Source of the DNA: Skeletonema tropicum
Lineage: Eukaryota > Bacillariophyta > Thalassiosirophyceae > Thalassiosirales > Thalassiosiraceae
Assembly: GCA_037178625.1 (NCBI GenBank)
Contig: CM074132.1
Span: 2,604,001 to 2,668,000 of the forward strand
Reading direction: 5' to 3'
DNA: 64,000 nucleotides
In this document: one piece after another, positions 14,192-63,545 of the stretch
How positions within the stretch are numbered: position 1 is the stretch's first letter
Layout: each line of letters begins with the position of its first letter
Translations under genes and position numbers: made by a program
The notes under the pieces: generated by a model
Seen by the model: the letters and a program-made list of their open reading frames with translations, nothing else
The model's database searches: none
What the model was told of the DNA's origin: nothing

Positions 14192-15268
14192 TTAGGGGGC
14201 CCTCTGACCTGTCTGAACAGCAATGAGCTGCTGGAGCGTAGCTGTATCTTCAGCATCACGCAAAACAAGCCATTGTTGAATAGCTGCGATATAACTCGAT
14301 TTGCATGGCTCGGAGTAGAATTGCGCAGCTTCCTCAATAAGGTTAACTGCCACAATGCAATCTTCGCCCCCATTATCAGCACATTTCTTGTTACCTTCAT
14401 TCAATACAACCGAAAACTCTTTCCACCCTAAGAAATCAGCGTATCCCTCCTGGTCCATGACACACATCCCAACAATACTTACAAATCCCAACAATGCGTT
14501 GAAAATGTTGACGTAATTACTCCACTCAATGATATTACCGCCTTGATCAGGAAAAAGGTTCACATCACTATCAATCGGAGTGAACGCTTGTTCAGTTTCA
14601 TCGAGGACAAGGGGGCAGGTTGAAAGAAGAATGAACAAGTCATCAACTGAGTATTCACCGACCTCCCCATGTTCTACGATGTCTCCAGAGGATTCATCGT
14701 AAACGTAATGCGATGCGGTGTAGTTGCCGTAAAGGGCGCCTTCGCCCCAATATCCAAGAGCTTGGACTTCACAGACTGCATTATTCTTGTCTGCATCAAG
14801 TCCCTTGACCTTGTCGCCTGGTTCAGCTTCTTTCAGAGTAATGACAGTGACGGAATCATCATCATTCACTTTGAACAATCCAGCGTCACCAGACACGCAA
14901 GATCCCTTGCCAGATTTTGGAAATGGAGAACCCTTGCCAGATTTTGGAAATGGAGAACCCTTGCCAGATTTACCGAGAGAATTGACTCGAGCCCCAACCA
15001 CAGATTTGTTCTTGGCGGCTACACTACTACTAGCTGCTACTGCCACAAGAAGTGTGAGAAGGATTGCAGAACCTGCAACGATGCCATAACGTTTGTACGA
15101 GGTAACGGTCTCGTCATTGGGATTGGGAGTGGCTTCGGAGGCGTCAAGCTCAATATCATCACTGGTGATGCGCTGAGGAAGAGAAAGAGATGTCTCCACG
15201 CCTTCCTCATCCGGAGCCTCAGCCTCGGTCGGGTTGAAGTTGAATTGATTGCGTGCGGACAAGGACAT
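14192..15268 (-). CDS. Type II membrane protein with Hedgehog/intein (Hint)-like domain, copy A
   Basis: 358 residues. The N-terminus is acidic and cytoplasmic-like, with one membrane segment at about 61-85 (YGIVAGSAILLTLLVAVAAS). A Ser-Gly-Lys-Gly/Pro-Phe repeat follows at about 98-122 (SGKGSPFPKSGKG). From Cys124 the sequence fits the start of a Hint fold: a Cys nucleophile after Gly-Ser, LKEAEPGDKVKGLD (block of the 'xxGDxV' type), EVQALGYW, and a TxxH motif at 184-187 (YGNYTASHYVY). An NxC-like end such as LLSTCPLVLDE comes near 212-223. Hint domains self-cleave by an N-S acyl shift at the Cys. Here that would release the luminal C-terminal part from the membrane stub. It is identical to copy B. 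The Hint call is by motif pattern only. Confidence 0.65.
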   Translation of the reverse strand: MSLSARNQFNFNPTEAEAPDEEGVETSLSLPQRITSDDIELDASEATPNPNDETVTSYKRYGIVAGSAILLTLLVAVAASSSVAAKNKSVVGARVNSLGKSGKGSPFPKSGKGSPFPKSGKGSCVSGDAGLFKVNDDDSVTVITLKEAEPGDKVKGLDADKNNAVCEVQALGYWGEGALYGNYTASHYVYDESSGDIVEHGEVGEYSVDDLFILLSTCPLVLDETEQAFTPIDSDVNLFPDQGGNIIEWSNYVNIFNALLGFVSIVGMCVMDQEGYADFLGWKEFSVVLNEGNKKCADNGGEDCIVAVNLIEEAAQFYSEPCKSSYIAAIQQWLVLRDAEDTATLQQLIAVQTGQRAP

Positions 15269-15525
15269 GTTGTGTACTCTTCTATCGTCAATAGATTATG
15301 TCGACATGACGACGACCTCTCTACTTTGAGGTACTCAACCGACAGATTTTTATTTCAGATTCGCAGCGGAGTCACGTCGTTGATCTCGGCGTTTTCTTTC
15401 ATTCAAAAAGCCAACCGGTACTCTGGGGTCTAAATTGTACAAAGGAATCATATAACAGAAATGATTTCCTCCACCTCTTTCATCAATTTGTAGCGGTTAA
15501 AAATATACGTATGTAGGAATAAGTA

Positions 15526-15819: not shown

Positions 15820-17129
15820 TAAGTATGCAAAGAGAATCCCAAAGTTGTTACAATACAAGGGTTCCCGTGATACAAGACTCCTCCTCTCTCTAGCTAGAGA
15901 GAGAGGAATCAGTAAATGGTGGCTTTCAAATAAAGATTCTCGAGGCAGTTCCACGACCGCCAAGAAATTGCAATCACTATTGTGCGTGCGGCGGCGGGAA
16001 CAAGCTTCTTACTCCTAACGCTGTGAGTCACGAATATACGGGACTAGAGCCGCTCCGAGGACAGGTATAGCTGTCTTATCTCCTTGACTCCATTGAGTAG
16101 ATTCCTACGTATCTCGTGTACAAGATGTCATCCGGCATTTCAATTTCGCGAAAAAATACATTTCAAAATTTTCCCGCGTCTTTTGTTCCAACAGTCCAAC
16201 ACTTTCAAGCACAAAAAACACATAATTCAAATAAATAAATACAAAATTAATCAGATTAGATATCTACACGAGTATAATACATCATGGGGAAATGAACCAA
16301 AATACCATGATGCCGGCATAGTGGGAAAAATCGTATCTCCTCAACTCTCCAGAAACTTAGTTGGCGCTAGGCCCATCTGAGCAGCTGAGATCACGGAGAA
16401 ACTTTTGATCTACCTGGCCCACTAAGTTACAATAGTCTCGCCCCAAACCTCCAAACCAAAATTAAGCCTACGAAATCACGAAAAACAACCCCTGCCGTCC
16501 TCCAATTCCTCTCAATATGAATGGTACAATCGGTCTCTCTCCATCAATCCTCGCTGTCGCTTATACATATAGACATTAGGTGTTGGTGTGGCACATTGCT
16601 AGTGACTTCATATGGCCATAGCACTCCGTCGGGCACCAATATTGCTGCTACACATCACATCATCGATTACAAACAAATGTCACCCATTTCATTGTTCTAT
16701 TCCGACCTCTAATCATGGCGATACAACTAAACACGACACAAGAGCTATCAATAATATGTAAGGATCGCTTTGTATCGTGAAGTTGACAAATATCTGTCTC
16801 ATGCATCTCCTCGACTCGATCAAGTGGATTTTTTTATGTACGTAGGAATCGTCCAAGAAGCGGTACCAAAGTGGCGCCAACGATCATTGAGCACAACATC
16901 ACCACCATGGGATTTCCGCACGAGTAGCGTACTTTACTAAGCATGGTGAATGGTGATGTTATAGATATAATGCTCGGGATGTTTACATAGATATATATGA
17001 ATTTATGAAGTTCCTACATTGGAATCAGTGAATACTCGAGGCAGTTCATGTGTGCAGTTTCCTCACAATTTTCATCGAAACTACTTACGAGAAGTACTTA
17101 CATCAACACATTTAAGCATCTATTACTAC
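15820..17129. other. Intergenic part of copy A; empty sites of the two copy-B insertions
   Basis: No gene was seen. Position 15914-15917 (TAAA) is the unoccupied target of the 1652-bp element found in copy B, and 16157-16159 (TAC) is the unoccupied target of the ~2-kb insertion. A run AGTCCAAC at about 16192 is present here and absent from copy B. Confidence 0.7.
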
Positions 17130-18361: not shown

Positions 18362-18696
18362 ATGCAATGGAGTCAGAAAAGCAAAGAAGGTTGATCTTGG
18401 CAAATCAGGCACGCAGGGTGACTCATGAGCAACCGGTACCCGAGACCGTTTGATTGGAAGAAAGTGAGTGGTGTGAGCTACTCACTTTTTCTCAAGAAGG
18501 AAGGAAGAGTTTTCTTTGAGATTCAAGAATATTTTACTGTGACTTCCTTGAGGAAGAGTCATGAGTGAATGTGATCATTTCATACCATACACTTATACTT
18601 ATTTCTCTAGAGTGATCTCGACAGAATCAAAGAAATTGTACACTCATCACCACAACCACAGTGCCTATTCATTCTCAATTAAGTTCTTGTCTTCGA

Positions 18697-19773
18697 TTAG
18701 GGGGCCCTCTGACCTGTCTGAACAGCAATGAGCTGCTGGAGCGTAGCTGTATCTTCAGCATCACGCAAAACAAGCCATTGTTGAATAGCTGCGATATAAC
18801 TCGATTTGCATGGCTCGGAGTAGAATTGCGCAGCTTCCTCAATAAGGTTAACTGCCACAATGCAATCTTCGCCCCCATTATCAGCACATTTCTTGTTACC
18901 TTCATTCAATACAACCGAAAACTCTTTCCACCCTAAGAAATCAGCGTATCCCTCCTGGTCCATGACACACATCCCAACAATACTTACAAATCCCAACAAT
19001 GCGTTGAAAATGTTGACGTAATTACTCCACTCAATGATATTACCGCCTTGATCAGGAAAAAGGTTCACATCACTATCAATCGGAGTGAACGCTTGTTCAG
19101 TTTCATCGAGGACAAGGGGGCAGGTTGAAAGAAGAATGAACAAGTCATCAACTGAGTATTCACCGACCTCCCCATGTTCTACGATGTCTCCAGAGGATTC
19201 ATCGTAAACGTAATGCGATGCGGTGTAGTTGCCGTAAAGGGCGCCTTCGCCCCAATATCCAAGAGCTTGGACTTCACAGACTGCATTATTCTTGTCTGCA
19301 TCAAGTCCCTTGACCTTGTCGCCTGGTTCAGCTTCTTTCAGAGTAATGACAGTGACGGAATCATCATCATTCACTTTGAACAATCCAGCGTCACCAGACA
19401 CGCAAGATCCCTTGCCAGATTTTGGAAATGGAGAACCCTTGCCAGATTTTGGAAATGGAGAACCCTTGCCAGATTTACCGAGAGAATTGACTCGAGCCCC
19501 AACCACAGATTTGTTCTTGGCGGCTACACTACTACTAGCTGCTACTGCCACAAGAAGTGTGAGAAGGATTGCAGAACCTGCAACGATGCCATAACGTTTG
19601 TACGAGGTAACGGTCTCGTCATTGGGATTGGGAGTGGCTTCGGAGGCGTCAAGCTCAATATCATCACTGGTGATGCGCTGAGGAAGAGAAAGAGATGTCT
19701 CCACGCCTTCCTCATCCGGAGCCTCAGCCTCGGTCGGGTTGAAGTTGAATTGATTGCGTGCGGACAAGGACAT
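18697..19773 (-). CDS. Type II membrane protein with Hint-like domain, copy B
   Basis: The protein is identical to the copy at 14192-15268: membrane segment at 61-85, SGKG repeats, presumptive Hint Cys124, and TASH at 184-187. No disabling change has arisen in either copy, which fits a very recent duplication or an assembly that placed two alleles side by side. The upstream region shared by both copies extends ~640 bp beyond the start before the first insertion in copy B, so both should carry the same promoter. Confidence 0.65.
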   Translation of the reverse strand: MSLSARNQFNFNPTEAEAPDEEGVETSLSLPQRITSDDIELDASEATPNPNDETVTSYKRYGIVAGSAILLTLLVAVAASSSVAAKNKSVVGARVNSLGKSGKGSPFPKSGKGSPFPKSGKGSCVSGDAGLFKVNDDDSVTVITLKEAEPGDKVKGLDADKNNAVCEVQALGYWGEGALYGNYTASHYVYDESSGDIVEHGEVGEYSVDDLFILLSTCPLVLDETEQAFTPIDSDVNLFPDQGGNIIEWSNYVNIFNALLGFVSIVGMCVMDQEGYADFLGWKEFSVVLNEGNKKCADNGGEDCIVAVNLIEEAAQFYSEPCKSSYIAAIQQWLVLRDAEDTATLQQLIAVQTGQRAP

Positions 19774-20030
19774 GTTGTGTACTCTTCTATCGTCAATAGA
19801 TTATGTCGACATGACGACGACCTCTCTACTTTGAGGTACTCAACCGACAGATTTTTATTTCAGATTCGCAGCGGAGTCACGTCGTTGATCTCGGCGTTTT
19901 CTTTCATTCAAAAAGCCAACCGGTACTCTGGGGTCTAAATTGTACAAAGGAATCATATAACAGAAATGATTTCCTCCACCTCTTTCATCAATTTGTAGCG
20001 GTTAAAAATATACGTATGTAGGAATAAGTA

Positions 20031-24374: not shown

Positions 24375-25340
24375 TACATTTCAAAATTTTCCCGCGTCTT
24401 TTGTTCCAACACTTTCAAGCACAAAAAACACATAATTCAAATAAATAAATACAAAATTAATCAGGATTAGATATCTACACGAGTATAATACATCATGGGG
24501 AAATGAACCAAAATACCATGATGCCGGCATAGTGGGAAAAATCGTATCTCCTCAACTCTCCAGAAACTTAGTTGGCGCTAGGCCCATCTGAGCAGCTGAG
24601 ATCACGGAGAAACTTTTGATCTACCTGGCCCACTAAGTTACAATAGTCTCGCCCCAAACCTCCAAACCAAAATTAAGCCTACGAAATCACGAAAAACAAC
24701 CCCTGCCGTCCTCCAATTCCTCTCAATATGAATGGTACAATCGGTCTCTCTCCATCAATCCTCGCTGTCGCTTATACATATAGACATTAGGTGTTGGTGT
24801 GGCACATTGCTAGTGACTTCATATGGCCATAGCACTCCGTCGGGCACCAATATTGCTGCTACACATCACATCATCGATTACAAACAAATGTCACCCATTT
24901 CATTGTTCTATTCCGACCTCTAATCATGGCGATACAACTAAACACGACACAAGAGCTATCAATAATATGTAAGGATCGCTTTGTATCGTGAAGTTGACAA
25001 ATATCTGTCTCATGCATCTCCTCGACTCGATCAAGTGGATTTTTTTATGTACGTAGGAATCGTCCAAGAAGCGGTACCAAAGTGGCGCCAACGATCATTG
25101 AGCACAACATCACCACCATGGGATTTCCGCACGAGTAGCGTACTTTACTAAGCATGGTGAATGGTGATGTTATAGATATAATGCTCGGGATGTTTACATA
25201 GATATATATGAATTTATGAAGTTCCTACATTGGAATCAGTGAATACTCGAGGCAGTTCATGTGTGCAGTTTCCTCACAATTTTCATCGAAACTACTTACG
25301 AGAAGTACTTACATCAACACATTTAAGCATCTATTACTAC

Positions 25341-32550: not shown

Positions 32551-34018
32551 ACTAGCCTCGCTGACGCTCGTCTAGCCGCTGCGCGGGTTTTCTAAATAAG
32601 AGAGGAGGCACCGGCTATCTACTACGATATTGATTGTGTCTACTTATATACATAGCAGTATTGAAATAGTATGTTATGTAACACTTTAATAATTATGTAA
32701 TAAAGGTTGTACATTGCCTTCTACGAATGCTGTGTAGTGATTACTGAGACACGGTTGGGAGAATATTGATTTATGTCAGAGGGATTATCTATGAAGAGGT
32801 TTAATGTGAACGTGTGGAAACGATTGAAGAGAGGTAGGAAGAAATTAGAGCGAGATGTAAATCATTTGGTGAAATAATATTCTACAGGACTGTTAGTATG
32901 ATTTGGCAGAGTTAGTACCCACTCTCGGATTCCTTCTTAATGTTGGTGAAAGTGGTGATGTAATTGACGTTAGAAGTTAAGCCAATCAAAGAAAGAGTCA
33001 ATCGAAAACTCTAAAAACGGGGGGGGGGGCAAGGGGTAAATCAAGATCAAAGAAAGAGTCGATCGAAAATGCCCGTGAAGGCCAAAGGACACGCGTTCGC
33101 ATCAACTTGTTTCATGATGTGTTCGCATCAACTTTCATGCTTCTCATCAGCTCCAGAAGAAGTTGATTGATATTTAGTAAAAGTTTACAGTGAGGGCTTG
33201 TATCTTATCTATCTCCATATAAAGAAAACACAAGGAAGCCTCCTGTAAACTCAAAACCCTATTTCTGACACTCACACATCAACTGTACCCTTACTAAAAA
33301 TTAGAACCCTATTTCTTGACACTCCACATCACACGTCCAAATCAAAGTTATCTTCCTCCAGTTAGCTCCCTCCCTCCATTTTTGTATGCTTTGATGCGTT
33401 CGCATCAACTTGTTTCATGATGTGTTCGCATCAACTTTCATGCTTCTCATCAGCTCCAGAAGAAGTTGATTGATATTTAGTAAAAGTTTACAGTGAGGGC
33501 TTGTATCTTATCTATCTCCATATAAAGAAAACACAAGGAAGCCTCCTGTAAACTCAAAACCCTATTTCTGACACTCACACATCAACTGTACCCTTACTAA
33601 AAATTAGAACCCTATTTCTTGACACTCCACATCACACGTCCAAAGAAAGAGTCGATCGAAAATGCCCGTGAAGGCCAAAGGACACGCCAAAGGGCCCGGA
33701 CCGACCGAACGACTTAGCTCATCTATCTCCATATAAAGAAAACACAAGGAAGCCTCCTGTAAACTCAAAACCCTATTTCTGACACTCACACATCAACTGT
33801 ACCCTTACTAAAAATTAGAACCCTATTTCTTGACACTCCACATCATTTCTGACACTCACACATCAACTGTACCCTTACTAAAAATTAGAACCCTATTTCT
33901 TGACACTCCACATCACACGTCCAAAGAAAGAGTCGATCGAAAATGCCCGTGAAGGCCAAAGGACACGCCAAAGGGCCCGGACCGACCGAACGACTTAGCT
34001 CCTCTCATTATTTAGATG
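32551..34018 (+). repeat. Left arm of a large inverted repeat flanking the amine oxidase gene
   Basis: Matches the reverse complement of 37920-38942. The outer end reads CTAGCCTCGCTGACGCTCGT. The first ~420 bp are about 98% alike by eye, and both arms end inward at ATTTAGATG. The left arm lacks ~345 bp present in the right arm (around 38175-38518). Instead it carries internally iterated blocks. A ~250-bp block occurs at about 33093-33342, 33396-33644 and partly at 33720-33925. A 43-bp or longer block containing ATGCCCGTGAAGGCCAAAGG occurs at 33052, 33645 and 33926. A G-run lies at about 33020. No transposase is encoded. Confidence 0.85.
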
Positions 34019-34293
34019 CCGCGGCGCCCGGCGCGGCTCGATCCTCGATCGCATCCCTACCTGTTCTTTTACGCCCGCCACCATCCAACAGCATCCAACG
34101 CACTAGTTCCGGGTTACGGCCATCACTGTCACTGTGGTGCCTATCATTATCTGAAATTAGCACAACCCATAATAATATTGGAGGAGAGTGAGGGAGACTC
34201 TTTCGTGTTCATTTTCTTCAGGTCTTCCTGCAAACAGCCGCTGACATCATCTGACATCTGACATCAAACCAACATACAGATACTCAACAGATA

Positions 34294-37200
34294 ATGACGA
34301 AGCCATCACGGAGCAGTTCTCGTCTTCGAACGTCGCCTCGTAGAGCTTCTAAACAGGGAGAAAGCGGGCTTGTGGGAGGTGAAGAATTACAGTGCAGTAA
34401 AAAACGTAAGGCGACATCAGCAGAGCTGGATCAAAAGAATGAAGTGCGTCGATCATCGAAGCGGCTGAGAGAGCAGCGAACTCCCGAAAGAACCGCTAAT
34501 AATGGTGCTACAAAAATCGAACCAGTCATAACAATACAGTCAGCAGGGGGGCGAAAGATTCCAATGAGATCTGCTCGGAATCGGCCTTCCTGGCGGCATC
34601 ATGATAGCTATACAACACGTAATAAATCAAACACAAAGAGCAAAAAGAGCGAGAAGAGCAACAATACAGCAACAAAACAGAAACAAACAATTATCAGTAA
34701 AGCTCGACGTCCTCCACGTGTTATTATTATTGGCGCAGGTATATCCGGTTTAGCCTGTGCACGTGAACTTAGTGAACGTCGGCATGATGTTCTTGTGTTA
34801 GAAGCTAGAAATAGATTGGGAGGGAGATTGAGAACGATAGATCTAATGATGGATGATGCTGAAACAGTAAGCGGCAGACAGGATGAAGTATGTGACGTAC
34901 AAAGCGAATTGTTCCAGGTAAAAAAATGGTCACCCGTCGACGTCGGCGGTGCTTTCATTCATGGAACGGGAGTTTACACTGCTACGGATTCGCATTCATC
35001 ACATGTTGGTTCACATGATTTTGGGACCAGCAAAAGTAGAAGTCGTGATGGATCAAAACTTAATAGTCGACAAGACAGCGATTCTGGTCCGATGAGGAAA
35101 TCAAAGCGGCTCTGCAACGTCAAAAGTGATCAGAAAGTAATTTACAAAGAAGGCAAAGATGCCAACGAGAATAAATTCAAGCGTGCCAATGGCAATGGCC
35201 TGCTAAATCCAGTATACAGTCTTGCCCAAAAGCTACGACTACCTCTCCATGCTACAGCCGGTGCTCATACTTGTCTGGTAGATCATAATGGAGCAAAAGT
35301 AAGTGACGAGGTTGATGAGAAAGTTTCGCATGATTTCAATCAGGTTTTAGATCTAGCAACTAAATGCTGTGAGAGTGGACGGTATGAATGGAATGATAAC
35401 ACTGATGGAGATGGAATCAATGGTGGTGCTTCAGATGCGATTATTAGACCAGGAGACGATTTCGCCAACGTGTTCGAAGAATGTAAGAAGCATCATTTTG
35501 ATAACTCTCCTAGAAGCGCTCAAGATCTTGACTCCAGTGATGAAGCAGTTCGTAACAACTTGTTTCAGTGGCATATAGCCAACCTTGAAATGAGCTCAGG
35601 CGCACCTATGAAGCAGCTGGGACAGAAATGGAACAAAGATGAACCATTTGGTTATGGTGGAGATCATTCTTATTTTGAATGTGGCACTCGTGATATCATA
35701 ACAGCTTTAGCAGAGGGGTTTGACTGCAGGGGTATAAGCAAACAATCTTCTCTTTTGAATGCCCCAAACTCAATTGACAAATCATCTTTGAAGAGGGGAA
35801 TTATTCAGTGTGGGATAGAGGTGAATGGAGTTAAAGTAATTGAGAGAGGAGAGGCCAAAGAACGCAGAAGATACAGTAGGCGGCACCCGATTGCATTGGA
35901 TGAGTCGAAACTCCGCCGATCACGCCGATCTAACAAAGGAAACCATATCCATTCAGGATCGCCTTCTTCACCAAATGGGAAACAAAATATACTTCCATCC
36001 TTTACATCGTATGCAAATGAAGAGAGTACTGTTGTCCATGTGACCACAACTTGTGGACTGACGCTTGAAGCCGATGCTGTCATCGTTTCAACACCGCTGG
36101 CAGTACTATCTGCACCACCAGGAGCTCCCGGTCACATTGCGTTTAGCCCTCCCTTGCCTGACTTCAAAACGAATGCAATGGATAGATTGGGAGTTGGTAC
36201 TTACAATAAGTGCTGCATGTCTTTTGAAAAGGCTTTTTGGAAAAATCTCTTTCCAACATCAAATGAGATGGACCAACGACTAGACTTTGTTGGTCACGCA
36301 GCCAAAGATCATGGGAAAGATATTTTGTTCTTGAGCATCAAGAACTCTCCAATTTTGGTGGCAATTTACGGTGGTTCAGAATACTCGAAGAAGGTGGAAA
36401 GCATACATGATGAAGAAGTTGTTGGAGAGTGTATGGAAGTTTTGAAAAAAATGTGCATCAAGGCACAACATTCACAAAGTCGTAGGACTAGGCAGCAAGT
36501 TGATGATATCACAATTCCAGAGTGGCCCATTGATTATTTCGTTTCGCGTTGGGGCTCAGATCCTTATAGTCGGGGTGCTTTCTCTTATGTTCCCCCTGGT
36601 ATCGATGGGTTTGAGGAGTTGTTGGCAATGTCAAAGCCAATTTATGATTTTTGTCCAGAGCATGAAACTCCGAGCAACAGGCCAAAAAGACCTTTAATAT
36701 TGTTTGCTGGTGAAGCAACGACTCCCTATCATCCGTCCACAATTCATGGCGCCTTTGAGAGTGGGATTCGTGAAGCATGCAGACTTGATTTAGCCCTAGA
36801 GCCAGACCTAAGTGAGTTCAAATTCAATGACTCGTTCATCTACAAGCCGACATTTTCAGTGCGACGTGCAAATGTCGTTCGCTCGAAAGCGGCATCAGCC
36901 ACTAAATCAGGACATCTCCTCAGTGAAACAACTGGAAGTGGAGATTGGAGCTTTGACAACGATATTAGCATCTTAAGAGGAGTTGAGAGTTTTGGTTGCT
37001 CTGTTGAAGGCATGGCAAAAATCAAGTCGAAAATAATGGCCTCAGATAACACGTACAAAACAGCGGATTTATTGAACAGGTACAAATTTCTCCGAAGTTT
37101 CCTTGATGATAAACCAGAAGCAAGCTTGGGCTGGGACAAGAGCGAGTGGTCCCTTCCCGAAGGAAGCTGGCTTGCACCAGGGGTGAATCAATCTATGAAG

Positions 37201-37542
37201 AGGAAAGCACCCATGGAAGCGAAGAGAGTTGCTGCATCACAGCTAAAGCTGCTGTCTGACGTCAAAGTCGGAACCAAACTGGCAATTTTATGGCCCGATG
37301 ATGAGATATATTATCGGGGAATTGTGAAAGCTCACCACTCCATGGTCTCTGGAAAGTATGGGAGCTGCTATGCGGAAGAAGACAAAGGCTTTGTATACAC
37401 AATTGATTATGATGATGGAAGCGAAGAGACTCTTAATATGGCACATGAAAGATTCCACATCATCAAAGATTTGGCTGAACCTTCTCGACGGTCATCTAGA
37501 AATGCGAAGAAGAAGTGGGACGCATCCTTTGAACTCCATTGA
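34294..37542 (+). CDS. LSD1-like FAD amine oxidase with C-terminal Tudor-like domain
   Basis: 1082 residues, intronless. The first ~140 are basic and Ser-rich (nuclear-type). The FAD-binding motif is at 142-180: VIIIGAGISGLACARELSER, with GxGxxG at 147-152, then VLEARNRLGGRLRT. The VDVGGAFIHGTG motif follows. The substrate part contains long low-complexity inserts. Later blocks are VIVSTPLAVLSAPPGAPGHI and LILFAGEATTPYHPSTIHGA-FESGIREA, the typical C-terminal FAD contact of flavin amine oxidases. At about 985-1065 a small beta-barrel (VGTKLAILWPDDEIYYRGIV, then VYTIDYDDGSEETLNM) resembles a Tudor/Agenet reader. No SWIRM domain or tower is visible. A chromatin amine oxidase or histone lysine demethylase is the best call, and polyamine oxidase is the alternative. 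The gene lies wholly inside a large inverted repeat. Confidence 0.85.
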   Translation: MTKPSRSSSRLRTSPRRASKQGESGLVGGEELQCSKKRKATSAELDQKNEVRRSSKRLREQRTPERTANNGATKIEPVITIQSAGGRKIPMRSARNRPSWRHHDSYTTRNKSNTKSKKSEKSNNTATKQKQTIISKARRPPRVIIIGAGISGLACARELSERRHDVLVLEARNRLGGRLRTIDLMMDDAETVSGRQDEVCDVQSELFQVKKWSPVDVGGAFIHGTGVYTATDSHSSHVGSHDFGTSKSRSRDGSKLNSRQDSDSGPMRKSKRLCNVKSDQKVIYKEGKDANENKFKRANGNGLLNPVYSLAQKLRLPLHATAGAHTCLVDHNGAKVSDEVDEKVSHDFNQVLDLATKCCESGRYEWNDNTDGDGINGGASDAIIRPGDDFANVFEECKKHHFDNSPRSAQDLDSSDEAVRNNLFQWHIANLEMSSGAPMKQLGQKWNKDEPFGYGGDHSYFECGTRDIITALAEGFDCRGISKQSSLLNAPNSIDKSSLKRGIIQCGIEVNGVKVIERGEAKERRRYSRRHPIALDESKLRRSRRSNKGNHIHSGSPSSPNGKQNILPSFTSYANEESTVVHVTTTCGLTLEADAVIVSTPLAVLSAPPGAPGHIAFSPPLPDFKTNAMDRLGVGTYNKCCMSFEKAFWKNLFPTSNEMDQRLDFVGHAAKDHGKDILFLSIKNSPILVAIYGGSEYSKKVESIHDEEVVGECMEVLKKMCIKAQHSQSRRTRQQVDDITIPEWPIDYFVSRWGSDPYSRGAFSYVPPGIDGFEELLAMSKPIYDFCPEHETPSNRPKRPLILFAGEATTPYHPSTIHGAFESGIREACRLDLALEPDLSEFKFNDSFIYKPTFSVRRANVVRSKAASATKSGHLLSETTGSGDWSFDNDISILRGVESFGCSVEGMAKIKSKIMASDNTYKTADLLNRYKFLRSFLDDKPEASLGWDKSEWSLPEGSWLAPGVNQSMKRKAPMEAKRVAASQLKLLSDVKVGTKLAILWPDDEIYYRGIVKAHHSMVSGKYGSCYAEEDKGFVYTIDYDDGSEETLNMAHERFHIIKDLAEPSRRSSRNAKKKWDASFELH

Positions 37543-37919
37543 TGCATCATTATGATAACACGTGTACCAAGAGATGAAGCCTGAGAGATTATTGTCACGC
37601 TATCGATAGTAGTAAACAGATCGAGAGAAGTGTGCTTGGATCGGCCAGACTCAAAGCCCTACCATTCTCTACAGAGAACAGGGCACACAGTCCAAGTCAT
37701 CACTTAAGACTAGTTGTCACGATAGATGACCCCCTTCACTCCTTTGTACTGATACTATCGACAGGACGATTCACAATCACCTAACACTTTCCCCACAGAC
37801 AGCCCTACCACGCACCGCGTGCGTCCAAATCTCAAATCTAAACCGAACTCTAGAGGCCTCCCGGGATAGTGAGCTCACGGGCGTGCCCACAACATAGTCT
37901 GGTTTGAGGATGGAGAGGC
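37543..37919. other. 3' flank of the amine oxidase gene inside the inverted repeat
   Basis: Unique sequence, with no gene seen. It ends where the right repeat arm starts. Confidence 0.5.
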
Positions 37920-38942
37920 CATCTAAATAATGAGAGGAGCTAAGTCGTTCGTTCTGTCGTTCTGTCGGTCGTTCGTTCTGTCGTTCTGTCGGTCGGTCGT
38001 TCTGTCGGTCGGTCGGTCGGTCGGTCGTTCTGTCGTTCTGTCCGGGCCCTTTGGCGTGTCCTTTGGCCTTCACGGGCATTTTCGATCGACTCTTTCTTTG
38101 ATTGGCTTGATTTGACCCCTTGCCCCCCCCCGTTTTTAGAGTTTTCGATTGACTCTTTCTTTGATTGCCTTAGAAAGAACACGGATTCGGAACAATGTTC
38201 TACCCAGAACACGGCGTTTCTTACACAGGTATCTACTCTCAAGGGGAGGTGCAATGTGATACCACCCTATCCTCTGCCGAGATCAACCTTCATCTCCAAA
38301 CACACCTCATCCATGTCTCCAACATCCTCAACAACGTACAGGAGGATTTGGATGATGCAAAGACCACGATCGAACAGGTCAATTGCTCCTTGACTAACTG
38401 GAAAACAAAATTTGATATTGTGTGTAACTTAGCACAGAGTTCTGGGGTCGATCTTGAAACCCTCAACAATATCAGAAATGAACATGATACTCTTACATTG
38501 TACAACAAGGCTCTCACTTCTAACGTCAATTACATCACCACTTTCACCAACATTAAGAAGGAATCCGAGAGTGGGTACTAACTCTGCCAAATCATACTAA
38601 AAGTCCTGTAGAATATTATTTCACCAAATGATTTACGTCTCGCTCTAATTTCTTCCTACCTGTCTTCAATCGTTTCCACACGTTCACATTAAACCTCTTC
38701 ATAGATAATCCCTCTCACATAAATCAATATTCTCCCAACCGTTTCTCAGTAATCACTACACAGCATTCGTAGAAGGCAATGTACAACCTTTATTACATAA
38801 TTATTAAAGTGTTACATAACGTACTATTTGAATACTGCTATGTATATAAGTAGACACAATCAATATCGTAGTAGATAGCCGGTGCCTCCTCTCTTATTTA
38901 GAAAACCCGCGCAGCGGCTAGACGAGCGTCAGCGAGGCTAGT
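37920..38942 (-). repeat. Right arm of the large inverted repeat
   Basis: Reverse complement of the left arm. It carries a GTTCTGTCG/GTCG-type simple repeat expansion at about 37944-38042, where the left arm has only GGACCGACCGAACGA, and it keeps a ~345-bp stretch with an open frame that the left arm has lost. The outer end is GAGGCTAG at 38941, immediately abutting the terminal repeat of the Mutator-like element. Confidence 0.85.
38195..38581 (+). CDS. Hypothetical 128-residue helical protein inside the right repeat arm
   Basis: Open from ATG 38195 to the stop at 38579-38581. The sequence is rich in Asn, Leu and Glu with heptad-like stretches (HLIHVSNILNNVQEDLDDAK, NIRNEHDTLTLYNKALTSN), suggesting a coiled coil. 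Most of it lies in the segment deleted from the left arm. No homologue was recognised. It may be a repeat-encoded protein or a chance frame. Confidence 0.35.
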   Translation: MFYPEHGVSYTGIYSQGEVQCDTTLSSAEINLHLQTHLIHVSNILNNVQEDLDDAKTTIEQVNCSLTNWKTKFDIVCNLAQSSGVDLETLNNIRNEHDTLTLYNKALTSNVNYITTFTNIKKESESGY

Positions 38943-39359
38943 TCCTATTATTGGCAGTTCAGGTTCAGTTATTAGGACGGAGTCCCATTATTTCCAACCC
39001 AAAGGTCCGGGTACTGGATTTCTTGTACACAAGAACCTCCTCTATTTCAAATCCGCTCCAAGCCAACGGTGAGTTCACTTCCACGACCTCACCGCACCTC
39101 CCACACCCACTACACCTACCACCTACCTACCACCGCACAATGAATGTCACCTTGACAATGGAAGGGCCGTCTCCTATGCGAAGCGAGCGCAGCGAGCGGA
39201 GCATCTCCATGGGGAAGATGAGCCGAGCGGAGCGATACGATGTTCTAAGTGGAGCGTTGCTCTCACAGAGAACTATATTCAGTCTAAGTCAGATGCGTAC
39301 AGTGTCGGTCCTAATAAGAAAGATATAAATATAAAGTTTACCGAGGGACTATTGCAGTT

Positions 39360-40926
39360 TTGCGCTACTTCTTTCTATGTCCTGAGGTTGTCACTTTCGA
39401 TGTGACGAGCCATACAAACAAGAATGGGTTCCACTTGTTGACCTTCTCATGCCGCACAAGTGTCGACAAGCAGGTTGTTTTCTGCCGTGTGTGGTTGCCT
39501 GACCAACGACGAGCATCCTTTCGGTATGTGTTTCAGGAAGGCTTGAGGAAAATATTGCCCGCACATGTCTTAGCAAGAGTTCGCTTCTTAATCTGCGATG
39601 GAGATCCACAACAGAATGCGGAGCTTCGAATCGCGATCAAATTGTTATGCCCACACGCTAGAATTGGCGGATGTTCCTTTCATATGTTCGGAAATGGTTG
39701 GAATAGGCATGTGGGTAGAATTGGATCAAATAGTGGGCAGAGACTTCCGGAATAGAGACAAGTCTTCTTGGTCAAATCTTCCGACTGGCCCGCATTTACT
39801 GACTTACGCGGAGGGGTTGATGGTCCAATCACATAAGAGAGCGCAACTTTACAAAGTTCGCCGTGTTGGCAGAAGTCGGTTTCAGGTTGTGTATGTGGGG
39901 GAAAATTGTGACCATTCCTTTGTCTCTCGCTATATTGATGATTGGTCGTCCGCCGAGGATGATGATGCCACAATTTCATCAGACGACACAAATGGCAAGG
40001 GTAGCGAAGAAGAGGATGACATTGGAGGTGCATATTGTCCACGTTTCAGCAGAGCATATACTGTTGATTTGAATGAAACCTGCAGTAGCTGTGATTGTTA
40101 TCACTTTCAGCGAGCTGGATTTCCCTGCCCACATATGAATGCATCGGCAAATGCAGTTTGCGACGCAAATGGTACAAAGTTCGAAGGATTTGGACATCAT
40201 AGTGTCAGTGTAAGATGGTGGACAAATTACATGTATTGGGGATATAGGTGTCCAGAATGTCCTGAAGAAAAAGAGATGCCGAAACTTTTTCATCATCTTG
40301 CCAAGAATGATGCTAAGGGGCCGCAGTTTTGCCATGTCATTCCTTCGTCAATGCCGATCAAGCCACCCGTTGAACCCTTGCCTGCTGTTGAACGGATCAA
40401 GAACTATCCGAAAGCTTCACTGCCCTCTCTCTTGCAACATTACAGGTCTGACAGATTTGATATGTTGTTGTCAGAAACTCATCTCCCATCTGGGTCTCAA
40501 GAATTGGAAGCCTCTGTTGATGATGATTACATTCTTGGTGAAATTGATGTGCTTCGTGCCTCAAGCGATGGTAACTTTGAAGCCATCATGGATGAATTGA
40601 ACCAACAAGATACCCTTTCTTTGCAAGAAGTCGATTCTACTAGAGATGTACAGGTCGCATTGAAGCCAGTCTTTAATGAAGCATGTGATCTCCTCAAACA
40701 ATGCCCTGAAATGGCACCAGAGTTTGAGCGCATGATGAAGTCGTGCATTGCTGACATGCACAAGAAAATAGCTGCAAAGGAAGCCGCATCTCAAGACTCT
40801 TCAACTTCGCCGACGACGGAACCCACTACGGCTGGAAAGAAGAGGTCTTGGAAAGCTGTTACTTCTAGAGAGTACAATGGGCCACCAAGGGTAAAAGTTG
40901 CTAAGAATAGTAAATTTTCAAGTTAG
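39360..40926 (+). pseudogene. MULE transposase, broken by frame change and internal loss
   Basis: The first part (frame of 39360-39755) has the catalytic-core blocks VTFDVTSHTNKNGFHLLTFS (Asp with the N of DxxxxxN), FLICDGDPQQNAELRIA (second Asp) and GGCSFHMFGNGW (the C-x2-H element). The second part is in another frame (open 39598-40926). It carries a SWIM zinc finger, CSSCDCYHFQRAGFPCPHMN (CxC...CxH), then an uncharacterised tail ending near 40926. The ~100 residues that normally separate the C-x2-H block from the SWIM finger are shortened. The frame changes between about 39690 and 39755, so an active enzyme is unlikely unless an unseen intron repairs it. Confidence 0.75.
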
Positions 40927-41188
40927 TGTTGTAATTACGGTGTTGCTGTCCACTTTTGGTGCGTCGGCGAAATGGGATGCACATGATATGACTTCGGTCC
41001 ACTAGCGTGCGTCAATACTTGGTACAGCAAGCAACCATCAACTATTTTATTGCAAGTGGCTGCGACCTTTGGAGCTGCATGACTAAGTTCGACAACAAAG
41101 AAGGCTGCACCTCAAAACTTCGCCGACGTCGGACACTACTACTTCTGGAGAGAAGAGGTCTTGGAGAGCTGTTACAGAAATAGTGTCT

Positions 41189-41525
41189 ATTGCAGGTCGG
41201 TGGGACGAGTCATCCGCAGTAGGTTTTATCCGACGCATCGGTTGAGACGCCGAAACTTTAACACCCACTACTGATGACTCATCTTTCCTCTCGATAATTG
41301 ACAACGTCTGTAGTCGGAGGAATGTGTATTTCAAAAATGACTTCTTACCTTTTGCCGCCCAAATTCTTCGCGTGCAGTAATTCGGAATTCATCGAGAACG
41401 TCAAGAGTGTCCATTGCAGGTCGGTATGAAGAGTCACGCGCAGTTGGTTTTATTCGACGCATCGGTTGAGACGCCAAAACTTTAACACCCACTACTGATG
41501 ACTCATCTTTCTTCTCAACAATGGC
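41189..41525 (-). repeat. Diverged ~115-bp direct duplication with conserved minus-strand reading
   Basis: 41189-41300 and 41408-41525 are similar by eye (roughly four in five bases). On the minus strand both read KDESSVVGVKVxASQPMRRI followed by KPTAxDSSxRPAxDT, with changes mostly at degenerate positions. This suggests a duplicated exon of a second MULE-carried or older gene. No complete ORF was found. Confidence 0.5.
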
Positions 41526-42430
41526 CACCCCTTTCGTCTCAAGTCAGTTCTTCTCCATGGAACACCGTTGGAGCAGGTCAAGAAAATAGCACAGAGAGTA
41601 AACAGAAAAGCAGCCCGAGCAGCCTTGAGGAAGCTTGTTGACACAAGTGCAGATAAGCTACCTAGATATTCCTTTCTTTTCTAATGCCATCCTTGAAGTG
41701 ATCACTTGATACTTGAGTGAGTTGTCATTTCTGATTGACCAGAGCCCTCTTCTTCCCTGACAAAATACCGAACCCTTGTTGCACATCAACATCACTTGTA
41801 TCACCGGGTGATTCTATGTGTCCCAAAGGGGACGAACGTTGAATTCGTTGTGGTGGAAGCGACTCATGCTTTATTAGGTCCGTCTTCGTCCTTGCCTTGG
41901 CCCTTCGGCATTCAACACAAGCCATGATAGATGGAATAGAGAGAATTACTTTATCCTTCGTCAAAAGAGACATGTAAGTGGAAATGTTAGAGCATGGTTG
42001 AAGTTAATACGAGTCGGTGGCATGAAAAGAGTTGTTCTCACCAATTATTTTTGGTATTTGTCCGTTCTGTTCACAGCAGAAAATAATTCCCATCATGCTC
42101 CGTTCTTTGACATATCCATAATTTATCATGTCCGTACAGTGTTGACGTTATACATTGCGGATGATGAGAGGGCAGGTGGAGGCGGCCGGCGGTCCGCAGC
42201 GTCTTATCATGGTCAATAGGTAATTCAAGCAGTGTTGTCGATGGGTTGAGCGAGCGAGGTGGTTTCGGGTTGCTGTTTTATTTGAGTTTTGATGAATTTG
42301 GGGTGACCGTTTGCTTTTTTGAAAGTTGGATTCTCATTCTTGTGTGCAAGAAATCCAGTACCCGGACCTTTGGGTTGGAAATAATGGGACTCCGTCCTAA
42401 TAACTGAACCTGAACTGCCAATAATAGGAA

Positions 42431-42824
42431 TGGGATTTTTGTCATTTTGAGGGTATATTTTGTCATTTCACGGGTATCTATATTTAGCTGTTGTTGTGCC
42501 TACGCGGTTGCTGCCCACATCACATACAAGAGAGTAGAGAGTAGGTACCTACCACCCTACATAGGATCTTCAGACACCTGTCTGAGTCACTTGGAGGACT
42601 CAGCACGCAGAGTCCCTCTGAAGAGGACTCCCAGTTATGACAGAAGACCTTATGTAGAGGGTGAGAGAGTACTAAAACCGATGATCCGTCGACCGTCGAT
42701 GGGAATTGTAATGCTACGAATTAGGCAGGCAAGGAATTAGGCAGGCAATGGAGATAGCTACCTTTTTGGCAGTGAGAAATCATCATCTTTCTCATTCTTT
42801 AACCGATTATAATTATAATCATTC
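42431..42824. other. Intergenic, upstream of SMU1 homologue
   Basis: No gene was seen. It contains inexact repeats of GGAGGACTC/GAGGACTCCC around 42592-42632. Confidence 0.5.
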
Positions 42825-55491: not shown

Positions 55492-57597
55492 GATAATATT
55501 GGCGCTTCGTTCAAAGGCAGTTGAAGAGACTATGCCGTCAGTACAAGTGATAGTTGTGGGGCTTTAGGTTATTTCTGTGCTAAGTACGCACCCTGGTCCA
55601 AAATCGAGATTTTGCTTCATAGCATTAACATCTTTTTTCTGTTTTAACTTTTTGTCTCCATTTTAGAGTAACTTTCGGGCATGCCCCCGAGGGCAGACTA
55701 CATAATGATCGAACATACGTAAGTTTTGATACTTATTACCCGTAGACAAGCTACCATGTTCTACTTTTCAACCATGGCTTCCGTCAGCTTCCGTCACTTG
55801 ACAACTACGCAGCATGATAAAATGTACGAGAGTGCAAAACAGTACTATAACAGCCATAACCTACCATGGAATAATAACGTGTAAGATTTCAGGGTCTAAC
55901 TCAGTGTAACGGAACCAACCTCTTGGGTACAAACTTCAATTTCAATCAAGTCAAATATGTAGTGTTGATATCCATTAACATTATTTTGTAACCATGTGTA
56001 ATGAATTATCTTTTCAATAACATGAAGCCGCGATGATGACTCAACACTCTATTAAAACATATGCCTCTCTGGCTTTATCGCTGGAGTTAGATTCTCTTGA
56101 CGGCACTATACAATCACACCCACGTCTCATAATATTGATTGTCTTTCTGGGGGTCTTTCCCTGTAATAACAACAGATGCTAACATGAAACCCATGAAGTG
56201 ACGAATTCATCAAGGATGCCTGTTGTTGATTGTTGAGTAAACCGACCTCCCTCCCTGCAGCATCTTAATTCTATTCTGATATGCATCAAGTATAGATAAC
56301 TACGATTGAATCTGTCGAAGATATGATTGCCCTGTGTCTCATTTCGGTGATGACAGTGCTACATAATGGATGCGCTCGCGGCACTTCTATTGACGGCGTT
56401 GGCCTTGAGAGTGACAATACACAGTGAGATCTTTTTATGGTATTCATAGATTCATTTATGCCAAGCGCAAATACTCCCTAGCTCGCACAATATTGACTGG
56501 ATACCCGGATCGACTGTCCTTAATCGATTCCTAAGAAATATTCGAAATGATTTGTTGTGATCGATTCGGGTAGCCGACCACTCCCCAAGGTACTAGCGCA
56601 TGTTGAAGTGGCGATAATATATTATTTCAGACTTCAGACATGACATAATATCATCTCCGTGTCGAAGGAGTTCTCTAACGGATCACGGTATCGGTACGTT
56701 TCTTTGGCCGTGGATGTCCCATGTTACTAATCATTTAGCGGTAGGATGTGCTCTCAACACCGTCGATGAAGAAAGTCACCTACAAAGAGCGTCGGTATTG
56801 TTGACCCCATCGCATTCCACAACACACGACACTACTGCTGAAAATACTCTCTAGCTCTCTCAATACTTGCCCAGTAAACAGCTCCTGAATACCATCCTAA
56901 ACTAATCACTTATTTATCTTATAAAAAAAAAAAAAAAACAAGGCAGCGGGATGAATGCAATGGTGGCTGTGGTTTGGGTTTTGGGTGGTGGTGGATGGGT
57001 GGTGGCGGAGCCAGGAGCTGTCATTGTCACATCCCCATAATCTAACGCGCTCGGTACTCGGTACTTCATGTATATATAAAGAGTGGATTTTGCGTGGTGG
57101 TGCGGGATGTGATCCATCTAACGCGCTCGGTACTCGGTACCCCTTCACCTTCAAATCATCGGACGGCCGGCCGGCCGATCGCGACATACAATGACGCCGC
57201 GCCGGCAGCACCATTCCTTACACAATAACCAAAGTCGCACAACGAATTACAACACAACATCAATGTTTCATTAAACATACTCCTAATATAGGTGCGCACC
57301 AATGTTTTGCCGTTGATTTCGTGGAATCATCGTATTGAGTGAATTCCAAACACACATCATCGAACATGTAGCTCATTTTTTGTATTTTCGCATCGTATTC
57401 ATATATTTAATATGTGATAATGCCGCTCATACGTCCATCTGACATAATATCCCACTGCAAAGTCACGAATAAGTTGATATCATTTCCACAGTGTCTCTGA
57501 ATTTTGTGCGTGTGTGTAATCGTCACTGAGAAACTCCTATCAAGGCTGCTCCCACTGCAGCAGTCTACAGCGTCAAAAGAAATACATCGACGAAATA
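55492..57597. other. 2.1-kb gene-poor region
   Basis: No convincing ORF on either strand. It contains a retroelement 3' tail (56866-56938), a 25-bp direct repeat beginning ATCTAACGCGCTCGGTACTC at 57040-57064 and 57116-57140 with a TATATATAAA between, and a GGCCGGCCGGCC palindrome at about 57164-57175. The 57240-57597 end should hold the promoter of the BTB gene. Confidence 0.6.
56866..56938 (+). mobile_element. 3' end of a non-LTR-type retroelement with 16-nt poly(A)
   Basis: 48 bp (56866-56913) identical to 18309-18356, followed by TTATCTTAT and A16 (56923-56938). An extremely 5'-truncated insertion with tail is the classic outcome of target-primed reverse transcription. No clear target-site duplication could be set by eye. 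Confidence 0.75.
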
Positions 57598-60660: not shown

Positions 60661-60938
60661 GATGTCATCAACATAGCGCTGGTCTACGCCAAATAAGAAT
60701 GCCGCTGCTACGCACAAGGCAATGTCAAGGTCCATCGTGGAAGGAGCTCAGAGCTCAGAGCTCAGAGAGGAGTTGGAGGCGGTAGGAAGGAGGTGGGTGT
60801 TTAGGTGAGGAGATGAGGAGGGGAGTTGGATGGATGCGAACGCTAAAACGCGAACTCGCACATCTATCAGGACGAATGCAATGATAGAACAATGAGGACA
60901 TTCATTATTGTTGTTATAACGTTATTACAAGTTACAAG

Positions 60939-61637
60939 ATGAACGAATTCGCCCCCAACGTATGGATTGCCGACGGACCCGTGGTAGATTTCTACGGGTT
61001 TCCCTACCCAACCAGAATGGTGATCATTCGCCTCAACACTGGGTGCTCTTGGATATGGTCACCAGTACAAATGAATGATGCTCTAGCCGACGAGATAAAA
61101 TCCAAGGCCGGTGAAGTCAAATACATCATATCTCCGAACAAAATCCACCATTTATTCTTGAAGCAGTGGGCAGAGAAGTATCCAGAAGCAAAAGTTTATG
61201 CGCCTCCTGGATTGGAGGAGAGAAAGATAGCCGATGGTATTCGCTTTGATGCAACATTCGGTCCAGACGAAAATGATCCACCATTTCATGATGAGATCGA
61301 CAGTGTGATTGTGCAGGGTTCTTATTTTATGGAGGAAGTAGAATTCTTCCACAAAGCATCAAAGACAGCCATAATATGTGATATAATTCAACGTCATCCC
61401 GATGAAGAAATGACTGGATTCAAGGGGATGCTCATGCGCCTCGATGGTCTGGTTGGAGACAATGGGAGTTGTCCCCGAGAGTGGCGATTTTCGTTTTGGC
61501 CATTTGGCAAAGAAAAAGCGAGGAGAGCTAGAGACACCATGTTAAGCTGGAAAGCAGATAAGTTGATTGTTGCTCATGGAAGTTGTGTTGAAGAAGGAGC
61601 TGCTGCTGTGATTGAACGAGCATTGTCTTGGATTTGA
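60939..61637 (+). CDS. DUF4336 family protein (metallo-beta-lactamase-like fold)
   Basis: 232 residues, intronless. It begins MNEFAPNVWIADGPVVDFYG, with YPTRMVIIRL and a WSPVQMNDAL strand. Then YIISPNKIHHLFLKQWAEKY holds the paired His in the place of the metallo-beta-lactamase HxHxD loop, and KVYAPPGLEERK and LIVAHGSCVEEGAAAVI follow. This is the pattern of DUF4336 proteins, found in bacteria, algae and plants with unknown chemistry. The metal site appears reduced (HH without the following D). No targeting peptide is present. Divergent from the Nudix gene with 278 bp between starts. Confidence 0.75.
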   Translation: MNEFAPNVWIADGPVVDFYGFPYPTRMVIIRLNTGCSWIWSPVQMNDALADEIKSKAGEVKYIISPNKIHHLFLKQWAEKYPEAKVYAPPGLEERKIADGIRFDATFGPDENDPPFHDEIDSVIVQGSYFMEEVEFFHKASKTAIICDIIQRHPDEEMTGFKGMLMRLDGLVGDNGSCPREWRFSFWPFGKEKARRARDTMLSWKADKLIVAHGSCVEEGAAAVIERALSWI

Positions 61638-61812
61638 ACAACTCATCACAGCGCCGAGCAAGACTGTCATTATAGCGGTCATGGATACTCTTCTCATTGT
61701 CAATCTACAAGTGTCGCGGCTGCTTCAACTACATGTATAATAAACACAGATATGCACATGCGTCCATTCCTGCGCTGCTATGACAACTCAACAACTTGCA
61801 GTTTGACATTGA

Positions 61813-63279
61813 CTACTTCAGCCAATCACGCGAGTTGGCCCCATCATTTGGCTTGTAGTATATTGTACCCACTTGTCTCTGACGAACGTTATTTGGGATA
61901 ACAGTATCCCTTGCACGTGGTCGGGGACGTTTTGTTGATGCCTGCCTCTTTCTGGCTTCAAGACGTGCTGCACGAATGCGCTGCAGTCTTTCAGCAACAT
62001 CAGGTGGTATTGTCGATCCTGCTCTGGTAGGTGAGACTTCATTAACTGGGTCTTCCCTTGTTTTTGGTTCTTGATTGCTGGTACTTTCTTCTGGCTCATT
62101 GATGACGGTAGCACGATCTTCGTCATCTTGTTGACGCTTCGCACGGATACTGCTCAACCTCTCGGCAACGTTGCGAGGAATGACCTTTTTGCTTTTGCTT
62201 TGACCACCCATAGCAGCACTAGCTGCAGCCACCATATCCAAGTTATCAGACTTAACGCTTGGCTTCTTCAGGTCGCTTATCTTTTCCAACGCACCGTTCA
62301 AGATGTTCTTCTTCATACTTCCCCATTGTTGAGTCGCCTTTGCCTTACTTTGGACGTTATTCCTCAAAGCAGCCCACCCAAACTTTACATTCTCCGAGTC
62401 AGCGGGATTTGCGTCATCTTGAGCTTCGTCGTCCTCCTTTTGGTTTTCGTACCAGTCTCGCAACCCAGCATTTGGATCTCCAGTGTGACTCAAGACGGCA
62501 ACAGCACCGCCTGTTTGGTAAGTGCGAAGCAAGATTTGGACATGACGTGGATTGAACTCATTTCGATTCTTTCCAGTATGGTCGAAAGTATCCTTCGAAG
62601 AACGTTCAATTTCTTCCCAAAATTGAATGCCAAATACTTTCTTTTGCAGCTTGCGCTGTATCTGGAACATGGGGAATAGCAACGTCTGATGAGTAGCCGT
62701 GAAGGATATGAACGCATTCAAATTGAGTGCACCCCCACGCTCAGCAGCATATTCAGTTGCATCTCTCAAGCATAGCTTGCCGCCGTTGGCGCCGAATAAG
62801 TCCTTTACCATATTCTCAATCTCAGGAATGGATAACTCTCCATCGCAATCCAAATCGTACATGTCGAATGTAAAGTTGGAAAGGCTATCAATCTTGAAGG
62901 TACAAACATTCCAAACTGATACCATGAACTCCAAGAAGTCAATATCACCGCCGCCAGTCGTATCAAAATATGTGAAGCATCTTTCTGTCCATTTCGACCA
63001 ATCAAGATCGAAGAAATCCAAGAAGTGCTCTATTTGAATCGCACCACTGGAATGATTTATTTTGCAGAATAGTTTCCAGAACTTTTCGATGGTACGTCGC
63101 TTCCATCCTAATGCGGCAAACGTCATCTCCCAATTTCGATTCGTTGGTCGGTAGGGAGGAATGAAGTACTTCTCATGGTAATGTTTCTGGGCCTTTTGAC
63201 TCAAAATAGAAGCATGCTCTCGAAGCGATTTGCCTCTGTTAGCACCGATTGGGTCTCGAAGACGTTCTACTTCTGGCAT
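61813..63279 (-). CDS. EF-hand calcium-binding protein with repeated VAERLxxIRA motif
   Basis: 488 residues, intronless. Helical N-terminus. A pair of EF-hands has loops at about 106-117 (DTTGGGDIDFLE) and 142-153 (DLDCDGELSIPE), both with acidic residues at 1, 3 or 5 and 12 suited to Ca2+. A diverged EF-like helix region precedes them (HFLDFFDLDWSKWTERCFTY). The C-terminal third is basic and disordered. A motif occurs twice (PRNVAERLSSIRAKRQ, PPDVAERLQRIRAARL) with a partial third (PNNVRQRQ), which may be a short peptide docking site. Widespread in protists and sometimes ciliary. The family was not named with certainty. Confidence 0.75.
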   Translation of the reverse strand: MPEVERLRDPIGANRGKSLREHASILSQKAQKHYHEKYFIPPYRPTNRNWEMTFAALGWKRRTIEKFWKLFCKINHSSGAIQIEHFLDFFDLDWSKWTERCFTYFDTTGGGDIDFLEFMVSVWNVCTFKIDSLSNFTFDMYDLDCDGELSIPEIENMVKDLFGANGGKLCLRDATEYAAERGGALNLNAFISFTATHQTLLFPMFQIQRKLQKKVFGIQFWEEIERSSKDTFDHTGKNRNEFNPRHVQILLRTYQTGGAVAVLSHTGDPNAGLRDWYENQKEDDEAQDDANPADSENVKFGWAALRNNVQSKAKATQQWGSMKKNILNGALEKISDLKKPSVKSDNLDMVAAASAAMGGQSKSKKVIPRNVAERLSSIRAKRQQDDEDRATVINEPEESTSNQEPKTREDPVNEVSPTRAGSTIPPDVAERLQRIRAARLEARKRQASTKRPRPRARDTVIPNNVRQRQVGTIYYKPNDGANSRDWLK

Positions 63280-63545
63280 TCTTCTGTTGTTATGATCAGT
63301 GAAAGTAAGTTGTTAGTGGCATCCTCGCTTCGGCTTCGGTTGAAGTTTAAACCACAACGCGCGCGAACATTCAAATTCGAAAGCATAAATTCTTGAGTGT
63401 ATTTTCATATTCATATCATGTGTCATTTTGAATAATGCTTACTCAAACCCCTACTTTGTTCGTTCCCTTGTTGACATAATTATACCCTTGCTTTGATCGA
63501 TCGGCAACCTCCTCTTTTGATACATTCGACAGTATTATCGAAGTC
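63280..63545. promoter_or_regulatory. 266-bp divergent promoter region (EF-hand gene and NME7)
   Basis: The shared upstream region of two divergent genes. No motif was identified. Co-regulation is possible if the EF-hand protein is also flagellar. Confidence 0.45.

Follow-up and report, generated by a model that had tools for sequence, protein, structure and literature searches.

Evidence for two independent insertions of a non-autonomous Helitron family around a host LSD1-like amine-oxidase gene in the diatom Skeletonema tropicum

Introduction

Foldback elements and Pack-MULEs possess long inverted arms with a gene between them, and Helitrons make no target-site duplications, canonical members of the latter carrying a short hairpin approximately 10-12 nt before the 3′ end. 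These features bear on positions 32551 to 38942 of a 64,000-nucleotide stretch of chromosome 6 of the marine diatom Skeletonema tropicum (C6:2604001-2668000; the whole stretch is hereafter called the window), in which an LSD1-like flavin amine-oxidase gene lies between two long inverted arms. An earlier note on this DNA had considered two possibilities: a host chromatin gene captured by a giant foldback or Pack-type transposon, or a host gene caught between two repeat copies. Here, we report that an old host amine-oxidase gene is very probably flanked by two independently inserted members of one non-autonomous Helitron family; this supports the second of the earlier readings and assigns the repeat to the Helitrons.

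Canonical Helitrons have been described as starting with 5′-TC, ending with CTRR-3′ and inserting into an A/T target (PMC5148889, PMC4344730). Helitron2 is described as inserting between TTTT and T or C and Helentron in TT, with hairpins at both ends in each case (PMC5148889). In the model given for Helraiser, transfer proceeds from the 5′ end to CTAG and genes are captured by read-through past the 3′ end (PMC4778049). Helitrons have been reported in another diatom, Cyclotella cryptica (PMC7466962), and the transposable element table published for S. tropicum CNS00166 has rows for DNA, LINE, SINE, LTR, Other and Unknown and no rolling-circle row (PMC11032307). No description of the family reported here was found among the titles and abstract openings of the open-access (PMC) papers listed in the searches.

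Structure of the Helitron pair and the enclosed gene

Self-comparison of the window placed the inverted arms at 32551-32977 and 38516-38942, where 427 nt are 98% complementary with 5538 nt between them, and thus bore out the earlier observation of two highly alike arms around one intact LSD1-like gene. Shorter inverted matches lie further in, including 50 nt (32978-33027/38123-38172), 49 nt (33046-33094/38054-38102), two cases of 68 nt, and 39 nt (33980-34018/37920-37958), the last of which is the inward second shared end of both arms. The 427-bp match is far above chance and represents a match between two members of one family.

The left non-autonomous Helitron (32552..34016, minus strand) is 1465 bp long, with its 5′ end TCTAAATAAT at 34016, its 3′ end ...GAGGCTAG at 32552, and A and T flanks, and the right one (37922..38941, plus strand) extends over 1020 bp from TCTAAATAAT, preceded by A, to GAGGCTAG, followed by T. 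Their conserved 3′ parts constitute the left arm (32552..32977, minus strand) and the right arm (38516..38941, plus strand), the last 426 bp being common to both elements at 98.4%. Further in, only patches are alike because the internal repeats differ. The left Helitron has internal direct repeats of 249 nt (33093..33855, minus strand; two identical copies and one at 62%), and the right one has a GTCG/GTTC tetranucleotide repeat just inside its 5′ end (37947..38042, plus strand, bounds judged by eye). The right Helitron also contains a 135-codon open frame (38174..38581, plus strand), a 5′-truncated tail of a MORN-repeat open reading frame, within which the right arm starts. The size of approximately 1-1.5 kb that the earlier note gave to the arms fits the two whole elements, even though their interiors are alike in patches only, and its outer limits of 32551 and 38942 were one base off, these being the flanking A and T next to the true element ends at 32552 and 38941.

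The 5′ ends of both Helitrons point toward the gene and their orientation is opposite (divergent), which gives the common 3′ parts the appearance of one long inverted repeat. No repeat was detected between the sequence to the left of 32552 (outer flank TCATGCA) and that to the right of 38941 (TTCCTAT); the pair is therefore not bounded by a target-site duplication.

The enclosed coding sequence (CDS) extends on the plus strand from 34294 (ATG) to 37542 (stop), 277 bp from the 5′ end of the left Helitron and 379 bp from that of the right one, and encodes 1082 amino acids in a single uninterrupted frame with an Amino_oxidase domain (Pfam, E 2.8e-52), in agreement with the earlier claim of one complete amine-oxidase gene between the arms. 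The best matches among solved structures are LSD1/KDM1A chains (E down to 5.4e-47), followed by KDM1B. No SWIRM domain was detected in a Pfam scan at E 0.01; the designation LSD1-like is therefore appropriate, whereas LSD1 would claim too much. At least 74 homologues were found from 7992 scored candidates, and because these include a Skeletonema menzelii orthologue (79% identity, 99% coverage) and Thalassiosira proteins at 45-49%, the amine oxidase is an old host gene. The possibility of a captured or foreign gene is ruled out by the same orthologue and the Thalassiosira relatives.

Distribution, termini and target sites of the family

The genome searched comprises 78.39 Mb in 125 contigs; C1, C6 and similar labels denote its contigs or chromosomes, and L017, L054 and similar labels denote loci extracted from it for comparison. 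A DNA search with 32551-34000 returned at least 124 matches, and the 427-bp left arm was found at no fewer than 39 further places on 17 contigs (37 at 99% and two at 96%), with 40 of 294 candidates scored. Allowing up to three mismatches, the outer 49-mer occurs at 184 places and the 27-mer of the 5′ end at 236. The arm is thus a dispersed repeat. The earlier note had proposed looking for arms elsewhere on their own, and approximately 200 occurrences, mostly single, were found in this same genome, giving a non-autonomous Helitron family of approximately 200 copies in a marine diatom.

Pairing of the ends was examined for the 85 of 100 listed 3′ places that fall within the span common to both lists, against 100 listed 5′ places (100 of 184 and 100 of 236 places, respectively), with a partner sought within 20 kb. 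A same-strand 5′ end was present on the correct side for 65 of the 85 3′ ends. One of these pairings (10,038 bp) re-uses the 5′ end of another pair, leaving 64 distinct elements of 224-5085 bp. Four wrongly arranged pairs were seen within 6 kb: two are the window's own elements matched against each other, another is formed by neighbouring elements on C10, and the last is on C1.

The elements have the form TCTAAATAATGAGAGGAG...GAGGCTAG, preceded by A and followed by T (that is, ending in ...CTAG before T), and homology among the extracted copies stops at these points: copies are alike from TCTAAATAAT inward and unlike before it, giving a 5′ TC end, and are alike up to CTAG and unlike past the next T, giving a 3′ CTRR end. 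A genome pattern search yielded 212 exact 5′ ends and 201 exact 3′ ends, in which TC and CTAG were built into the pattern itself; the flanking bases showed A before 201 of the 212 5′ ends and T after 200 of the 201 3′ ends (102 + 98, one exception). Among 30 extracted elements with different flanks or lengths (two of the flank pairs are represented twice), 28 have both A and T; the exceptions are L031, whose 5′ end abuts the CTAG of another copy, and L033, in which CTAG is followed by G. Equal flanking k-mers of 2-8 bp were found for two of the 30 elements, one with 2 bp and one with 6 bp, the latter in a flank of low complexity. There is thus no target-site duplication in the family. A subterminal inverted repeat is formed by the 5′ TCTAAATAATGAGAGGAG and a 3′ stretch located 39 bp from the end, whose reverse complement is similar to it.

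An uninterrupted counterpart of an insertion site is available for the 668-bp element in L054, which is nested in the 3′ end of another copy between CTCTCTTA and TTTAGAAA, at a precise empty site between A and T. Its joined flanks (60+60 bp) could be aligned 38 times, at 97-99%, with 3′ ends of the extracted loci that have no interruption; 37 alignments span 100 or 102 columns and one spans 75, and the set corresponds to approximately 32 distinct places once overlapping loci are set aside. For the 913-bp element of L024 and the 507-bp element of L027, related uninserted sequence occurs in the window at 16842-16948, 25053-25159 and 55743-55835, with 89% and 82% identity and small indels near the junction. 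Comparison of L021, L022 and L023 gave no usable empty site, since homology is lost a few bases short of the element.

Head-to-tail abutting copies, in which CTAG is followed directly by TCTAAATAAT, occur at C3:213502/213503, on C8 (L031:844/845) and at C20:1184570/1184569. The circle junction described for Helraiser has the same form as these junctions of CTAG and TC (PMC4778049).

The collinear copy on the same chromosome

A second copy of the amine-oxidase gene is located approximately 0.4 Mb away at C6:3032325-3035600 and encodes a 99% identical protein; 23 nucleotide differences separate the two copies over 3246 coding positions (dN 0.005, dS 0.014). Between 10958 and 58060, stretches of the window align to L017-L019; identity is 97-99% in the large blocks and lower in some of the short ones. 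A further alignment, at 97.1%, joins 60783-63442 to L055. The left Helitron is absent from the collinear copy, in which homology ends at 32531 and returns at 34089, and so is the right one together with approximately 3.8 kb more, homology fading at 37834 and returning at 42751. The earlier note had named, as evidence against its own proposal, a syntenic locus with the gene and without either arm, and single arms elsewhere with target duplications of their own; within this genome both the armless locus and the single arms were observed, and target duplications were not.

The collinear stretches are C6:2614958-2667442 and C6:3020001-3057000, on the same scaffold, interrupted by insertions and repeats.

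Rep/helicase genes in the genome

A profile search of the genome with PF14214 gave 67 Rep matches, of which 29 had an E of 1e-19 or better, and the presence of Rep/helicase frames speaks for the Helitron reading. Two families were compared within 10-kb loci. The copies in L047 and L048 are 99.93% identical over 7279 bp and contain separate DUF6570, Helitron_like_N and PIF1 frames, and in L045 and L046 a single frame of 2225 aa contains DUF6570 and PIF1 together with a Helitron_like_N match, the latter scoring 25.9 bits in the whole-protein scan (cut-off 28.9) and 32.3 bits at the same place in the genome search.

The autonomous-looking copies in L047 and L048 diverge after ...GGGCCGAT, which is not a CTRR end. 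On C21, a 974-bp member of the present family (L056:2095-3068) has a 282-bp antisense Rep-domain fragment inside it.

Interpretation and alternative explanations

Two independent Helitron insertions are favoured by the element boundaries, the A and T target sites, the lack of target-site duplication, the prevalence of single copies, and the collinear gene copy with neither element. The family resembles non-autonomous canonical Helitron1 elements in its 5′-TC, CTAG, insertion between A and T, lack of target duplication and variable interior. It also shares with the lepidopteran Hel-2 a subterminal inverted repeat, a variable tetranucleotide repeat after the 5′ repeat, AT flanks, and TC and CTRR ends (PMC4344730), a likeness to an element of another host group that concerns described features rather than sequence relationship. 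An asymmetric terminal inverted repeat, here between the 5′ end and the 3′ stretch 39 bp from the end, is also found in Helitron2/Helentron, from which the family differs in its A and T target and its TC...CTAG termini. Rolling-circle transposition with a Rep-helicase supplied in trans would account for these copies, and the left and right insertions would be separate events. The position of the gene, upstream of the 5′ end of each Helitron, means that neither would carry it; transfer from either 5′ end to CTAG would leave it behind.

Several points weigh against this assignment. The 3′ hairpin is weak, a difference from canonical Helitron1, consisting of a 4-bp stem approximately 24 nt from the end and folding no better than shuffled sequences (z -0.3). 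The exact 5′ ends include 11 of 212 without a preceding A, six of which have G, three of these six abutting the CTAG of another copy, and 20 of the 85 3′ ends had no 5′ partner among the matches listed. The collinear copy provides no base-clean empty site for the window's own two insertions, the left junction showing short differing stretches and the right one approximately 3.8 kb of extra sequence in the window. Also unlike the situation in canonical Helitron1, no autonomous partner with these ends was found: the four Rep loci of two families (L045-L048) lack them within the 10 kb examined, although for the L047/L048 family the 5′ end may fall outside this span, and one of the 67 Rep matches, the C21 fragment, lies inside a family member and is the only one within 5 kb of an exact 3′ end among the matches listed. 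The absence of an autonomous partner does not bar membership among non-autonomous Helitrons.

A single composite foldback- or Pack-type transposon, bounded by the arms and moving the captured gene as a unit, would explain why 98% complementary, outward-facing arms enclose exactly one gene and why a second near-identical copy of that gene exists. Foldback elements and Pack-MULEs share with this locus the inverted arms around a gene, but here each arm has its own, opposite 5′ end TCTAAATAAT just inside it, next to the gene, so the arms belong to two separate elements; the approximately 200 arm copies are mostly single, the outer flanks bear no target duplication, and the second gene copy lies in a collinear armless segment, which makes it a segmental or allelic copy rather than a transposed unit. 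When 199 of the 201 exact 3′ ends were considered, only four neighbouring pairs within 10 kb faced outward, compared with four facing inward and six in tandem. The gene-capture proposal of the earlier note is accordingly given hardly any probability. The same pair statistics bear on the idea that outward-facing copies supply a promoter, a terminator or hairpin-RNA regulation to the gene, to which the proximity of the insertions (277 and 379 bp) lends some appeal, as does the number of outward pairs, 1.3 being expected under uniform placement and four being reached in 3.8% of simulations. However, neighbouring pairs of all arrangements are in excess (14 within 10 kb versus 5.0 expected, standard deviation 2.2; 14 was reached in none of 2000 simulations), which reflects general clustering, and a single locally duplicated stretch of C14 accounts for two of the four outward pairs. 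The family is clustered and the window's pair is not exceptional, and we regard such a regulatory role as very unlikely.

Under the preferred reading of two separate Helitron insertions, the collinear segment may be either a segmental duplication or a retained other haplotype. In the latter case, the armless copy would be the other haplotype scaffolded into the same chromosome and the Helitrons would be heterozygous insertion polymorphisms rather than differences between paralogues. This is supported by collinearity over approximately 52 kb of the window, by the small divergence between the gene copies (23 nt in 1082 codons), and by the genome paper, which gives a heterozygosity of 0.73% and states that the assembly may retain redundant, highly heterozygous allelic sequence (PMC11032307). 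On the other side, the copy is on a chromosome-scale scaffold in the same orientation, approximately 0.39-0.41 Mb away, and we consider the chances of the haplotype explanation to be about even.

The false lead of a giant gene-capturing foldback is thus replaced by a defined Helitron family, and the locus illustrates that divergent neighbouring Helitrons can imitate a long inverted repeat.

MORN-repeat cargo of the family

The full-length frame, of which the 135-codon frame of the right Helitron is the tail, has 188 aa and contains a MORN repeat (E 8e-05, score 22.8 bits, cut-off 22.5). A 197-residue query containing the full-length frame matched 84 places in the genome; 73 of the matches reach the last residue of the query, with graded starts (a 5′-truncated series), and for 74 the same strand carries an exact family 3′ end no more than 1.5 kb downstream. 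The other ten comprise two distant MORN matches (27% and 34% identity) and eight close relatives, one of which is a family member, the remaining seven being N-terminally incomplete matches. The complete 188-aa frame is present at six places: C4:4225649 (in L028 and L049; L028:750-1313, minus strand), L050-L053 and L054. No host parent of the cargo was recognized among the 84 matches, the seven close relatives not having been individually inspected. Outside this genome, a query without the first Met matched five proteins of ten candidates: a record of the MMETSP transcriptome set at 97% over the full length, and others at 61-88%, including S. dohrnii.

The gene cargo, the head-to-tail copies and the near-identical ends hint at recent activity of the family, and the family may serve as a usable case for Helitron gene capture in diatoms. 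A more speculative proposal, which we hold to be unlikely, is that a complete MORN-repeat gene is a stable passenger of the family, that the 427-bp arm consists of the last codons of this gene fused to the Helitron 3′ end, and that two such elements give the armed copy of the amine-oxidase gene, and not the armless one, element-borne regulation.

Neighbouring features of the window

The sequence of approximately 3.8 kb beside the right Helitron (38942-42750), absent from the collinear copy, contains a 444-aa frame with a SWIM zinc finger at 39592-40926. At some distance from the pair, the same two overlapping frames (367 and 260 aa) occur at both 14192-15525 and 18362-20030, approximately 4.5 kb apart; these frames have no Pfam match at E 0.001, and both stretches align to the same part of L017.

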